A stretch of 64,000 bases of DNA, from the NCBI RefSeq assembly GCF_014696615.1, contig NZ_JACJQJ010000048.1, forward strand, positions 1 through 64,000, read 5' to 3'. Under the pieces are notes generated by a model. The model was given only the letters and a program-made list of their open reading frames with translations. It did not search any database and was not told where the DNA came from. This DNA comes from Nostoc linckia FACHB-104 (GTDB lineage Bacteria; Cyanobacteriota; Cyanobacteriia; Cyanobacteriales; Nostocaceae). Positions 24,754-28,537 of the stretch are shown here, piece after piece. Both the position numbers and the translations under genes were made by a program. Numbering within the stretch: the first letter of the stretch is position 1; every line of letters starts with the position of its first letter.

Positions 24754-25869
24754 TTATCCAGTGCTACGGATAAATCCTGTCTCTTTGAGCAGCCGCGCTA
24801 GTTCTCTGTGAGGAAATTTCGTATCCTTGTTTTTGTTATCCCACATTGCAGCAAAGAAGTTTTGCATCAGCGTAATGATGCTACGGTATTTAACAATGCT
24901 GGCAACATAGAAATCATTTAACTTCATATCGCCGTCAGCATATATCTGTTCGATGTTGTCGAGTAATATTGACCTCTGTTCATAAGGCTTTAAGCTTTCT
25001 TTGATGCTATATTTTTCTCTGATTCTGTATTTATCCCTTTCTGAACATGAATCATAAGGTGCACGAATCAAATGACCGAGATTTCGCAGAACTTCGCCGT
25101 AATCATAAAATTTGTTCTGCTCAAAGAAAGATTTTTCTTGTATTGTTAACGCGAAACTCTGATCGAGTACCAAGCCAAAATCGCTTAAATAAATCTGCTT
25201 GCCGTCAGTGAGAATATTACGAAAATGTGCGTCGAAGTGGATGATTCCCTTCATCCTCAAAAAGTCAATCGTTGTGCGTAACTCATCCAAGGGTTGCTGA
25301 ACTTTGTCGGGGTTTAAGAATAGCCATGTTTCCAAAATATGGGGAATGTATTCTAAGAACAGAACTAATTCATAGTTGGCATTTGCTCTATCTAATAAAT
25401 ATTGCCCCGCGTTCTCACTATTACCCCAGTATTCTATGTAACTTTTGTAATGCTCTCTATCTACATCAGCACGCTGCCCAGAGAAGGGAATAATCCGATA
25501 ATGGTACATCAGGGGGAAAGTAGCAATTTCACCTGCTAATACCCAGTTAGTTGTCTTGATATGGGTTACGAGTTCACGAAAGACACCAAAACCAGTGGAA
25601 CCTAAGCCGTAATTACAGTAAGTCGGCAAGTTATAGAGGTTTTTGGTAGAAAAGAGGTTGTCAAATTCGATGTCCGTCACAGGAACAAGTTTCACAAAAA
25701 CCTGGGATTCTCCCAGAGTTATGGTGTAATTTCTCCCCCAACCTGTACTTGAATCATTCGATTCACTATTGTTAAACAAAGAAAGCAATTGTGCATTATC
25801 TAACTGAGCAATTTGTGAACTGAGGTGGAAATATTTCTTGGTTCTAATTTCTATAGGATTATTAGCCAT
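24754..25869 (-). CDS. Protein-kinase-like phosphotransferase
   Basis: A 371-residue protein with the protein-kinase-like core. The ATP-binding lysine is K60 in SQVFVKLVP, the catalytic loop is H211-F-D213-A-H-F-R-N218, and the metal-binding motif is D230-F-G. The glycine-rich loop is not of the usual form. FLEYIPHILETW looks like the hinge, and a helical C-lobe follows. The D-A-H in the catalytic loop (instead of D-L-K) is closer to small-molecule or APH/Rio-type kinases than to Ser/Thr kinases, so the substrate may be a metabolite or a protein. It is divergent from the CP1-less leucyl-tRNA synthetase, with 272 bases between, so a shared control region is possible. Confidence 0.75.
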   Translation of the reverse strand: MANNPIEIRTKKYFHLSSQIAQLDNAQLLSLFNNSESNDSSTGWGRNYTITLGESQVFVKLVPVTDIEFDNLFSTKNLYNLPTYCNYGLGSTGFGVFRELVTHIKTTNWVLAGEIATFPLMYHYRIIPFSGQRADVDREHYKSYIEYWGNSENAGQYLLDRANANYELVLFLEYIPHILETWLFLNPDKVQQPLDELRTTIDFLRMKGIIHFDAHFRNILTDGKQIYLSDFGLVLDQSFALTIQEKSFFEQNKFYDYGEVLRNLGHLIRAPYDSCSERDKYRIREKYSIKESLKPYEQRSILLDNIEQIYADGDMKLNDFYVASIVKYRSIITLMQNFFAAMWDNKNKDTKFPHRELARLLKETGFIRSTG

Positions 25870-26102
25870 TTTCCTCCGTCTAGCTACAGCGCATTGAGTG
25901 TCAGCAGTTAACGAATCTAGATGGAGTGGCTTTTCCCGCTGACTTTCCGTAATATCTCAATTCTCATTGTAGCCAATCTCAGGAATCGAAAATGGGGGTA
26001 CTTCCCTAGCTAGAATTTGGCAACAAACTCTCTTGAGCGTATTACAATAATATTACAAGTAAGCATTAAGAATTTTATGATGCACGACTGGGACCTATAA
26101 AG

Positions 26103-26121
26103 CCGGATCAAAGAGATCCGG
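26103..26121 (+). promoter_or_regulatory. Leader hairpin just before the LeuRS start
   Basis: A perfect 7-base stem (CCGGATC and GATCCGG) with a 5-base loop, ending 20 bases before the TTG start. Directly upstream lies a tiny frame, 26077-26100, reading MMHDWDL-stop with one CTA leucine codon. The layout invites thoughts of attenuation, but one Leu codon is too few for a classical leader peptide. The hairpin may simply limit ribosome access. Confidence 0.35.
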
Positions 26122-26141
26122 TCAATTCTATTCCACCTTCT

Positions 26142-28046
26142 TTGACTTACGACCACCGCGCAATCGAAGCACGATGGCAATCCATCTGGCAGCAAACCCA
26201 ACTGTACGAAGTCGATTTAGCAATAACTGCTCAACCTTTTTACAATTTGATGATGTTCCCCTATCCCTCAGCAGAGGGTTTACATGTTGGGAATGTCTAT
26301 GCTTTTACCGGAGCAGACATTTACGGTCGTTTCATGGCGATGCAAGGGAAAGCGGTGTTTGAGCCAATGGGCTTTGATGCTTTTGGCATTCACAGCGAGA
26401 ATTTTGCGATTAAGCAAGGCGTTCATCCTCGTGAATTGACGGCGCGTAATGTAAAGCGATTTCGAGAAACGCAGTTGCAAAGAATTGGCAATCGTTTCTG
26501 CTGGAATCACGAAATTCAGACTACAGATCCCGCGTATTATAAATGGACGCAGTGGATATTCTTGCAGTTGTTCAACGCTGGGTTAGCTGTTCGTAAAAAA
26601 GCAGCGGTGAACTGGTGTCCTTCATGCAAGACAGTACTTGCTGATGAGCAAGTCATTAGCGGTGAATGCGAACGCTGCAATACCATTGTCATTCAACGAG
26701 AATTGGAACAGTGGTTTTTCAAAATCACCCAGTATGCCCAAAGGTTGTTAGACAATTTGGAGCGATTGGACTGGTCAGAAAAAGTTAAAACGGCTCAACG
26801 CAACTGGATTGGGCGTGACGAAATAGATGGCACAGTGCAGTATCACTTGCGAGATTGGTTAATCTCAAGGCAACGCTATTGGGGCCCGCCGATTCCGATT
26901 ATTTATTGCGATAGCTGCGGTACAGTGCCCGTTCCGGAGGAGCAATTGCCAGTGCAGTTACCGGAAACGGAGAATTGGTTGCCTCAAGGCACTGGGAATT
27001 CTCCTTTGGCAGACATTCCAGAATTCGTCAATACAACCTGTCCCTGCTGTGGTGGTGCAGCGCGGCGAGAAACGGATGTGTCTGATAACTTTTTGGATTC
27101 TGCCTGGTATTTTTTGCGCTATCCATCAAGCGATCGCGCTGATGTTCCATTTGATCCCGCAATTACCGCTAAATGGTTACCTGTGGATATGTATATTGGT
27201 GGCGCGGAACATTCTGTTCTCCATCTGTTGTACAGTCGATTCATCACAATGGTGTTGCACGATTTGGGGCATATCCCGTTTGAGGAACCCTTTCGCCGAT
27301 TCCGCGCCCACGGATTGCTGACTAAACAGGGTGGCAAAATGAGCAAATCCAAGGGCAATGTGGTGAATCCCGATGGCTACATCGAGGAATATGGTGCTGA
27401 TACATTGCGGACTTACTTGATGTTTTTGGGGCCATACGACCAAGGTGGCGATTTTTGCGATCGCGGGATTGCTGGTATCCGGCGATTTTTGGATAGAGTG
27501 TATCAATGGGTGAACAAACACAAAAATAGTTTGCAACCAAATCCGCCTGATTTGGCATCGCAGCGGCGTTTACATCAAACAATCCACAAGATTTCTGAGG
27601 ATATGCAATCGCTGAAATATAATACAGCGATCGCCGCCTTGATGAGTTATTTCAATGTGTTGCTGTCAAAGTCTAGTATTGCAGAGGTGGAATTGAAGTC
27701 CTATCTGTTGATGTTGGCTCCCTTTGCACCCCATATGACTGAAGAACTCTGGCAACAATTGGGTGAATCAGGCTCGATTCATCAGCAAACTTTTCCCCAG
27801 TTCGAGCCAGAATTGTTGATTACCGAACAGGTAACAGTCGCAGTGCAAATCAATGGACGTACTCGAACGACAATTACCGTTTCACCACAAGCTTCGCAGC
27901 CGGAAGCGATAGCGATCGCCAGGCAAACAAAAGCAGTTCAATGGTATCTCAAAAATCAGGAGGTTCAGCGTGTGGTTTACGTTCCCGGTCGAGTTATTAA
28001 CTTTGTCACCTTCGGCATAGCTACCTCCGCATTTCTGCCTTCATGA
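26142..28046 (+). CDS. Leucyl-tRNA synthetase paralogue without the CP1 editing domain
   Basis: A 634-residue class I synthetase, against about 850-870 for ordinary bacterial LeuRS. The catalytic signatures are intact: H48-V-G-N (HIGH), two zinc-knuckle segments (WCPSCK with ECERC, and YCDSCG with CPCCG), DWLISRQRYWG, and K399-M-S-K-S. The anticodon-binding helical domain (PFAPHMTEELWQ) and a short C-terminal domain follow. Between NWIGR (221-225) and LRDWLISRQ (236-) only about ten residues remain, where LeuRS normally carries the roughly 190-residue editing domain with its threonine-rich and GTG motifs. The frame is clean. The start must be the TTG at 26142, since the frame opens at 26070 and offers no ATG before the conserved EARWQ. 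It should charge tRNA-Leu without proofreading, or act as a specialised aminoacyl-AMP enzyme. Confidence 0.93.
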   Translation: MTYDHRAIEARWQSIWQQTQLYEVDLAITAQPFYNLMMFPYPSAEGLHVGNVYAFTGADIYGRFMAMQGKAVFEPMGFDAFGIHSENFAIKQGVHPRELTARNVKRFRETQLQRIGNRFCWNHEIQTTDPAYYKWTQWIFLQLFNAGLAVRKKAAVNWCPSCKTVLADEQVISGECERCNTIVIQRELEQWFFKITQYAQRLLDNLERLDWSEKVKTAQRNWIGRDEIDGTVQYHLRDWLISRQRYWGPPIPIIYCDSCGTVPVPEEQLPVQLPETENWLPQGTGNSPLADIPEFVNTTCPCCGGAARRETDVSDNFLDSAWYFLRYPSSDRADVPFDPAITAKWLPVDMYIGGAEHSVLHLLYSRFITMVLHDLGHIPFEEPFRRFRAHGLLTKQGGKMSKSKGNVVNPDGYIEEYGADTLRTYLMFLGPYDQGGDFCDRGIAGIRRFLDRVYQWVNKHKNSLQPNPPDLASQRRLHQTIHKISEDMQSLKYNTAIAALMSYFNVLLSKSSIAEVELKSYLLMLAPFAPHMTEELWQQLGESGSIHQQTFPQFEPELLITEQVTVAVQINGRTRTTITVSPQASQPEAIAIARQTKAVQWYLKNQEVQRVVYVPGRVINFVTFGIATSAFLPS

Positions 28047-28080
28047 ACTACCCCATCCGTCTATACGACGGGGTAGTTCA
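28044..28080 (+). terminator. Strong hairpin terminator of the LeuRS paralogue gene
   Basis: A perfect 11-base stem, TGAACTACCCC (28044-28054) with GGGGTAGTTCA (28070-28080), whose first three bases are the stop codon itself. Additional pairing inside (CCGTC with GACG) extends it. A T-rich run (TCATTTATCTTATTTTC) follows. Confidence 0.7.
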
Positions 28081-28111
28081 TCATTTATCTTATTTTCAAA
28101 CTGAGATGGTT

Positions 28112-28537
28112 TCAGTTGTTCACAGATGGATCGCAGTTAATCATCCACGAGATGCCAAATTGATCTAGCACCATCCCAAAACGGTAAGCCCAAAAGGTTT
28201 GCCCAAAAGGCATTTTCTCCTTCCCATTTTCTGCCAGTTTGTGAAAAATGCGCTCTGCTTCTACTGGATCTTTAAGACTAATCGATACGGAAAAACCCTG
28301 TGGTTGTTCATAGTATTCCGGTGGGTTGTCAGAACCCATCAATTCTTGATTGTCTACCATCAAACTGACGTGCATAATTTTATTGCGCCATTCTGTTGGC
28401 AAGTTATCTACCATGTATGAATCTGGCGACTCTGCATAAGTCATCATGGTGATAATTTTGCCCCCAAGACATTGTTCATAGAACTTAAACGCTGTTTCAC
28501 ATTGACCGTTGAACATTAAGTAAGAATTTAATTGCAT
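28112..28537 (-). CDS. VOC-superfamily protein, PhnB/glyoxalase type
   Basis: A 141-residue protein of the vicinal oxygen chelate fold. It starts MQLNSYLMFNGQCETAFKFY, the usual opening of the PhnB-like (3-demethylubiquinone methyltransferase-annotated) group, and includes GGKIITMM, HVSLMVDNQELMGSD and SVSISLKDPVEAERIFHKLA. The group has no agreed biochemical role, and some members bind metals or antibiotics. The length is normal. It converges on the LeuRS paralogue gene. Confidence 0.88.
   Translation of the reverse strand: MQLNSYLMFNGQCETAFKFYEQCLGGKIITMMTYAESPDSYMVDNLPTEWRNKIMHVSLMVDNQELMGSDNPPEYYEQPQGFSVSISLKDPVEAERIFHKLAENGKEKMPFGQTFWAYRFGMVLDQFGISWMINCDPSVNN

Follow-up and report, generated by a model that had tools for sequence, protein, structure and literature searches.

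A second leucyl-tRNA synthetase without the CP1 editing domain in Nostoc linckia and its relatives, preceded by a predicted TrcR operator and a conserved leader

A leucyl-tRNA synthetase (LeuRS) that naturally lacks the CP1 editing domain is already known from Mycoplasma mobile, and so are plasmid tRNA arrays and the regulator TrcR. A second LeuRS alongside the housekeeping one is also known, in the case of the AgnB2-type resistant enzymes. For the M. mobile protein, a nonapeptide is reported to replace CP1 (title cited in PMC3834818). TrcR is described as the repressor of a plasmid tRNA operon of Anabaena, where it binds TGTAGTAT over the −10 box, and this operon is reported to be induced by translation-blocking antibiotics (PMC10272220). 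Here we describe a CP1-less LeuRS, called LeuRS2 below, of the cyanobacterium Nostoc linckia FACHB-104, and compare it with these systems.

The window, that is, the whole stretch of 64,000 nucleotides that was analysed, carries the LeuRS2 gene on its forward strand (Table 1). The open reading frame has 634 codons and no internal stop. Its product scored 724.6 bits against the NCBIfam model of bacterial leuS, TIGR00396 (cut-off 548.4), and contains the Pfam domains tRNA-synt_1 and Anticodon_1. The HIGH motif (as HVGN), the KMSKS motif, both four-cysteine sets (eight zinc cysteines) and the catalytic positions inspected are kept. The first-pass annotation, which had reported catalytic motifs, zinc regions and the anticodon-binding domain in a clean frame, is borne out on all these points by the profile matches and the residue check. 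Class I signatures, zinc cysteines and conserved positions of the leucine site, in an assignment that we take to be correct, are present, and the CP1 editing domain is absent; as this absence is the finding itself, membership of TIGR00396 rests on the remaining chain. The asparagine in fourth place of HVGN occurs likewise in 14 of 39 full-length relatives. Residues 84-85 read HS, also as in 14 of the 39, and the two features together are perhaps a mark of the subfamily.

The reading of this frame as a LeuRS gene holds, and its two ends call for correction. The TTG start at its first codon is doubtful, since most relatives have no start codon there. At the other end, the matches of relatives stop at residue 622-626, and residues 625-634 had no match in any relative seen, so that the last ten codons are best taken as local read-on beside the inverted repeat. 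This repeat lies where homology ends and may be the trace of a recent indel at the 3′ end.

Table 1. Coordinates of the features of the LeuRS2 locus in the window
Feature	Position	Strand	Basis or remark
Predicted TrcR operator, a pair of 8-mers at 11-bp spacing that overlaps a TACAAT −10-like hexamer	26039..26057	.	promoter comparison and published TrcR site
Leader mini-ORF ATGATGCACGACTGGGACCTATAA (MMHDWDL-stop), −1 frame relative to leuS	26077..26100	+	leader comparison
Leader hairpin GCCGGATC-AAAGA-GATCCGGT, directly 3′ of the mini-ORF stop	26102..26122	+	inner stem kept, loop variable in relatives
CP1-less leucyl-tRNA synthetase (LeuRS2)	26142..28046	+	residues 1-624 homologous to relatives
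HIGH motif, reads HVGN	26283..26294	+	sequence reading
Junction DEIDGTVQYH (residues 226-235) replacing CP1	26817..26846	+	alignment with relatives and 3ziu
KMSKS motif	27336..27350	+	sequence reading
Last ten codons, without counterpart in relatives	28014-28043	+	homology comparison
Inverted repeat, 15-nt arms, 9-nt gap	28043..28081	.	3′ end, where homology to relatives stops

Ten residues, DEIDGTVQYH, sit between NWIGR (residues 221-225) and LRDW (236-239). Aligned with the Thermus LeuRS (1h3n), LeuRS2 matched in separate pieces and chain positions 229-403 were skipped; with the CP1-less LeuRS of M. mobile (3ziu), a single-piece alignment covering residues 3-622 was obtained. These alignments and those with relatives confirmed the claim made at first pass that the whole of CP1 is gone and about ten residues stand in its place. 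The NWIG..LRDW spacing was 19 residues in all 18 CP1-less sequences compared, a set that leaves out rows L048, L050, L055, L179, L181 and L184. A sequencing or assembly error at the join is excluded, since the same junction was read in other genomes and in public plasmid records, where the gene bears the annotation leuS or class I tRNA ligase. Searches of the open-licence literature yielded no paper on a cyanobacterial LeuRS without CP1, nor any linking such an enzyme to TrcR, which is consistent with the earlier remark that no cyanobacterial case had been described.

Like LeuRS2, the M. mobile enzyme is a natural LeuRS without CP1, with the same domain order and a short peptide in the CP1 place. 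The M. mobile junction NWIGKEEIDGKITYKLQDW (NWIG..LQDW) and that of LeuRS2, NWIGRDEIDGTVQYHLRDW, are both 19 residues long, and their letters are alike, EEIDGK in the former and DEIDGT in the latter. The two cases differ in that the cyanobacterial clade has full-length sisters of its own and that full-length Chloroflexota LeuRS were the closest outgroups found, so that the two CP1 losses look independent. The common junction length would then probably reflect convergence, M. mobile being outside the tree that was built. They also differ in that the canonical LeuRS is always kept alongside LeuRS2 in cyanobacteria, whereas we know of no LeuRS in M. mobile other than the CP1-less one.

The Chloroflexota enzymes (53-57% over the best segment) were found among 80 outgroup loci taken from a wider scan of genome contigs, which was clearly incomplete, since no cyanobacterial LeuRS2 copies were among the matches listed. 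In a tree of 22 LeuRS2, 23 outgroups and the canonical LeuRS of N. linckia, LeuRS2 formed a clade separate from the latter. The full-length sisters are 85% identical to the LeuRS2 of the window in the N part and 77-79% in the C part, and CP1 was cut from the four sisters before tree building. In free trees, these sisters fell within the CP1-less lineages, at low support (41% and 22%), and a tree forcing the CP1-less forms together was not rejected (AU p = 0.444, with 8 outgroups). The common junction length favours a single loss of CP1; repeated loss, or regain, is a tenable alternative history. For 12 of the 18 sequences of the junction set, dN/dS was 0.127 over codons 1-33, counted from a conserved YDH, and 0.081 over codons 34-220. 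Values of about 0.1 indicate that LeuRS2 is in use, and that its N-terminus is translated from at least about YDH.

The genome of N. linckia (9.39 Mb, 181 contigs) also contains a full-length leuS, on contig C68; a second copy of this kind was what the first-pass annotation had advised looking for, and LeuRS2 is therefore a paralogue. A canonical LeuRS match (E ≤ 1e-150) was obtained in 23 of the 23 genomes carrying the LeuRS2 subfamily, that of G1020 covering residues 277-873 only. Among 217 genomes of the family, 15 have the subfamily, 11 of them in the CP1-less form (N. linckia included) and four with CP1. LeuRS2 is thus dispensable, the CP1-less form being limited to 11 of 217. One of these 11 has its copy cut by a contig end (G478), and another has two copies (G420), L045 on contig C2 and L055 on contig C3, which read the same. 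One of the four CP1-bearing copies, L051 of G448, is broken; three sister copies retain CP1 with what we take to be its threonine-rich and HDxRD stretches. In wider samples the gene was scarce: 5 of 388 genomes of the order (N. linckia included), with CP1-less copies in G722 and in G633 (two copies), a CP1-less copy without its 5′ end in G644 and a fragment in G742; and 5 of 388 genomes of the class (N. linckia again included), among them G1020, G944, G1041 and G922, the copies of the last two being broken. Several copies outside the window are thus truncated or broken. In the phylum sample of 386 genomes, none of the matches listed, apart from that of N. linckia, was better than E = 2e-107, and those listed were C-terminal parts of longer frames. 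A pattern search of a viral contig collection gave no viral relative of LeuRS2. In a phage collection, the 15 records listed of 63 aligned as two or three segments (38-46% identity), and behave as full-length LeuRS would.

The plasmid collection placed LeuRS2 on plasmid2 of Aulosira laxa NIES-50, pNSMS102 of Nostoc sp. MS1 and pA of Kovacikia minuta, the last two being, by coordinates, the copies of G552 and G1020. The contigs bearing the copies of G442, G944, G1041 and G922 are 5.8 to 8.2 Mb long and are probably chromosomes. No neighbour was common to diverse lineages in 22 regions of 6-10 kb: some sharing was observed among close relatives, a few short or unidentified ORFs were common to two or three loci, and the glyoxalase-like ORF (Pfam) at 28112-28537 of the window was shared with G944 alone. 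The window, L038-L040 and 24 short relative loci were all free of tRNA genes according to ARAGORN.

The plasmid location in Aulosira, Nostoc MS1 and Kovacikia, and the loss of the entire CP1 domain, would suit a resistance copy which, having no editing site, escapes the natural or man-made inhibitors that act there; an effect of tavaborole-like boron compounds on cyanobacteria is reported (PMC7763570). Against this stands the lack of any neighbour or gene cluster in common among the regions compared. AgnB2 confers self-immunity to the antibiotic agrocin 84, whereas no antibiotic cluster was seen around LeuRS2. Moreover, three sister copies keep CP1, so that the gene was not acquired for the sake of escape. 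We regard a resistance role as unlikely.

On the minus strand, the predicted operator of the LeuRS2 promoter reads TGTAATAT-TAT-TGTAATAC, and on the other strand GTATTACA-ATA-ATATTACA. It resembles the published regulon in having TGTAGTAT-type sites over the promoter of a translation gene (PMC10272220). It has the paired design of the tRNA array promoters of the same genome, with operator sites at 11-bp spacing; these array promoters carry the TrcR 8-mer repeatedly, with two exact copies 11 bp apart on C59. It differs from the array sites in being of opposite orientation and slightly degenerate: the window operator has TGTAAT where the published site has TGTAGT, and shows one mismatch even to the degenerate pattern. 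Two 8-mers spaced by 11 bp, differing from the pattern at no more than 2 of 16 positions, were found in 18 of 22 LeuRS2 promoters and in 0.05% of 4400 mononucleotide shuffles; the pattern was written after inspection of the array and LeuRS2 promoters. Among the exceptions, the Kovacikia half-sites are 10 bp apart and L180 has 3 mismatches. In L183 and L184, the broken copies of G1041 and G922, the operator is absent and the leader mini-ORF and hairpin described below are still there.

A scan of the 9.39 Mb genome at no more than one mismatch returned 8 paired sites, of which some must be due to chance, since a reversed-pattern control gave 3. LeuRS2 itself is downstream of one of the eight; four others lie upstream of a tRNA array, an ABC transporter, an EF-G-like gene and an RNA ligase, respectively, and the remaining three (on C29, C96 and C118) precede ORFs of 494, 80 and 96 aa. 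The RNA ligase (L206:396-1472) matched Pfam RNA_ligase and T4_Rnl2_C and fell under the NCBIfam Rnl2 cut-off; together with the EF-G-like gene (L201:1-1425) and the ABC transporter (L198:1563-3017), it is a candidate member of the regulon.

The published trcR promoter motif has a single exact occurrence in the genome, before a 111-aa ORF with a leucine at position 44, and copies with one and two mismatches precede the EF-G-like and RNA ligase genes. A leucine at this position is reported for TrcR (PMC10272220). The 111-aa ORF has no Pfam match; from its exact motif, size and Leu44, it is the probable TrcR orthologue. Homologues of this protein were found in 21 of the 23 LeuRS2 genomes, the exceptions being G722 and G742, the latter 67% complete. 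Neither a LeuRS nor any other aminoacyl-tRNA synthetase appears in the published table of strongly derepressed genes (PMC10272220). Membership of LeuRS2 in the TrcR regulon is a strong prediction from the promoter comparison.

ARAGORN identified two tRNA arrays in the N. linckia genome, L169 on C59 with 19 tRNAs and L170 on C97 with 21. Their tRNALeu genes are 75-81 nt long and have a short variable loop, unlike normal long-arm tRNALeu. In all, 33 array tRNALeu were found in 13 array loci, and a covariance model was built from the 20 of these that were aligned. These 20 have U72 and A73 in common, and their length of 74-81 nt indicates that they are short-armed. Over 13 sources, the model separated array tRNALeu (77.7-89.6 bits) from the next best match (62.7). 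Two further features of the arrays can be mentioned. A 72-nt tRNA with a CUA anticodon (labelled Pyl by ARAGORN), nearly identical in 4 of the 13 array loci (L170:1297-1368, L185:2837-2908, L186:2584-2655 and L190:2284-2355), is a possible amber-reading stress tRNA, and in 5 of 11 plasmid array regions (L185, L189, L190, L192 and L194) the annotation places an HNH endonuclease gene upstream of the array.

The shared features of the array tRNALeu, the operator type common to array and LeuRS2 promoters, and the presence of both an array and LeuRS2 on Kovacikia plasmid pA would all be expected if LeuRS2 were the dedicated partner of the short-variable-arm tRNALeu, the two forming a separate leucine-charging pair. 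When the 217 family genomes were searched with the model, array tRNALeu were found in 114 of them, namely in 10 of the 15 that have the LeuRS2 subfamily, in either its CP1-less or its full-length form, versus 104 of the 202 that do not (Fisher p = 0.29; G398 is listed as having no match, and G419, G442, G525 and G526 were counted as such, being absent from the list of 114 matching genomes). This co-occurrence is not significant, so that LeuRS2 is not a strict partner of the arrays, and we consider such a dedicated pair quite improbable. LeuRS2 and the arrays may nevertheless be induced together.

Between operator and gene lies a conserved leader, which was compared in 22 loci (L048, L055 and L181 were left out as copies of L039, L045 and L040, and L050, L051 and L178 because their 5′ end is missing). 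All 22 contain a mini-ORF of six or seven codons ending in GA[C/A]-CT[A/G]-TAA, a leucine codon followed by a stop. A hairpin starts 1-3 nt past this stop; its six inner pairs form in 22 of 22 and its 5-nt loop varies. The spacer from the mini-ORF stop to YDH is 29, 44, 47 or 62 nt, all 2 mod 3, so that leuS is in the −1 frame in every case. The leader motif occurs once in the N. linckia genome at up to 3 mismatches (control 0), and positions 25800-26400 gave no Rfam match to E = 1.

An ATG, GTG or TTG in the open leuS frame before YDH was present in 4 of the 22 only, at differing places, the window TTG being one of the four; in the other 18, leuS has none ahead of the conserved domain, and no near-cognate start codon was found at one common place across the 22 leaders. 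Canonical start codons between the mini-ORF ATG and YDH were counted as 3, 13 and 2 for the three frames; that there are so few in the leuS frame is thus not in itself unusual, as they are equally rare in one other frame. From the mini-ORF stop to YDH, none of the 22 has a stop in the leuS frame, as compared with 1 and 10 of 22 in the other frames. The spacers keep the frame through at least 3 indels of multiples of three, which would happen by chance about once in 27 times, and give modest support to the leuS-frame relation. No protein-level constraint was found in the 12 leaders of equal length, where dN/dS was 1.22 for the leuS frame against 1.05 and 0.64 for the other two; past the hairpin, the values were 0.85, 0.43 and 0.75, another frame looking more constrained than that of leuS.

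From this arrangement we infer that the leader hands ribosomes to leuS, either by a −1 frameshift or by termination and reinitiation. The −1 relation is constant (22 of 22) and a stem-loop lies just downstream, as in frameshift sites; a classical slippery heptamer X XXY YYZ is absent, the conserved core being GA[C/A] CT[A/G] TAA. Reinitiation at leader peptides is described for bacteria generally (PMC4833913), and would have to proceed here without a good start codon. A more specific scheme is put forward tentatively. LeuRS2 would have no start codon of its own; ribosomes would load at the leader ending in a leucine codon and cross, aided by the hairpin, to the −1 frame of leuS at or next to the stop. 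Since the hungry codon of the leader would be a leucine codon, a shortage of charged tRNALeu would raise the synthesis of the spare LeuRS, and the whole would act as a self-sensing recoding switch under a stress repressor.

The same leaders could be read as those of a decaying pseudogene without start codon: most copies lack a canonical one, a ribosome-site-like tetramer ahead of the mini-ORF is found in 16 of 22 loci and is absent in the window, the mini-ORF of L043 has an internal stop, three copies (G1041, G922 and G448) are broken, and a fourth (G644) is without its 5′ end. However, dN/dS is about 0.1 from the first conserved codon on, the frame is intact in the 12 sequences compared, and leader and hairpin are conserved, which makes decay a very unlikely explanation. 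Least probable of all is a recruitment away from translation, for instance as a source of leucyl-adenylate or leucyl-tRNA for some biosynthetic pathway, as suggested at first pass, where loss of proofreading would cost less: this found no support, as no neighbour was common to diverse lineages in the 22 regions of 6-10 kb and the anticodon-binding and C-terminal parts are retained.

We favour, with moderate confidence, the view that LeuRS2 is a functional second LeuRS, acquired from outside cyanobacteria, which lost CP1 later, in the cyanobacterial lineage, and was retained by selection as a stress backup controlled by TrcR and edited in trans by the canonical enzyme. During normal growth, TrcR would hold LeuRS2 off. 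When translation is disturbed or blocked, LeuRS2 would be switched on with the stress tRNA arrays and other translation genes, and would charge tRNALeu, adding capacity without editing. The canonical LeuRS, always present, could clear mischarged tRNALeu in trans. LeuRS is a monomer, so that such help would need release and recapture.

In being a cyanobacterial duplicate synthetase beside the normal enzyme, LeuRS2 is comparable to the Anabaena threonyl-tRNA synthetase T2 (thrS2), reported to be stress-induced, editing-impaired and served in trans by T1 (PMC4787780). T2 differs in being a class II dimer, induced by lack of zinc, whose editing domain is present but impaired and which forms T1-T2 heterodimers.

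LeuRS2 is one more natural LeuRS that lacks proofreading, from free-living bacteria in which a normal LeuRS is kept, and its full-length sisters permit a comparison of the enzyme before and after CP1 loss. Its leader is a candidate for an unconventional translation start, or for recoding, in a synthetase gene. For the biology of these cyanobacteria, LeuRS2 would add a candidate synthetase to the translational-stress response, and allows one to test whether leucine charging that is prone to error is tolerated, or put to use, by cells under stress.
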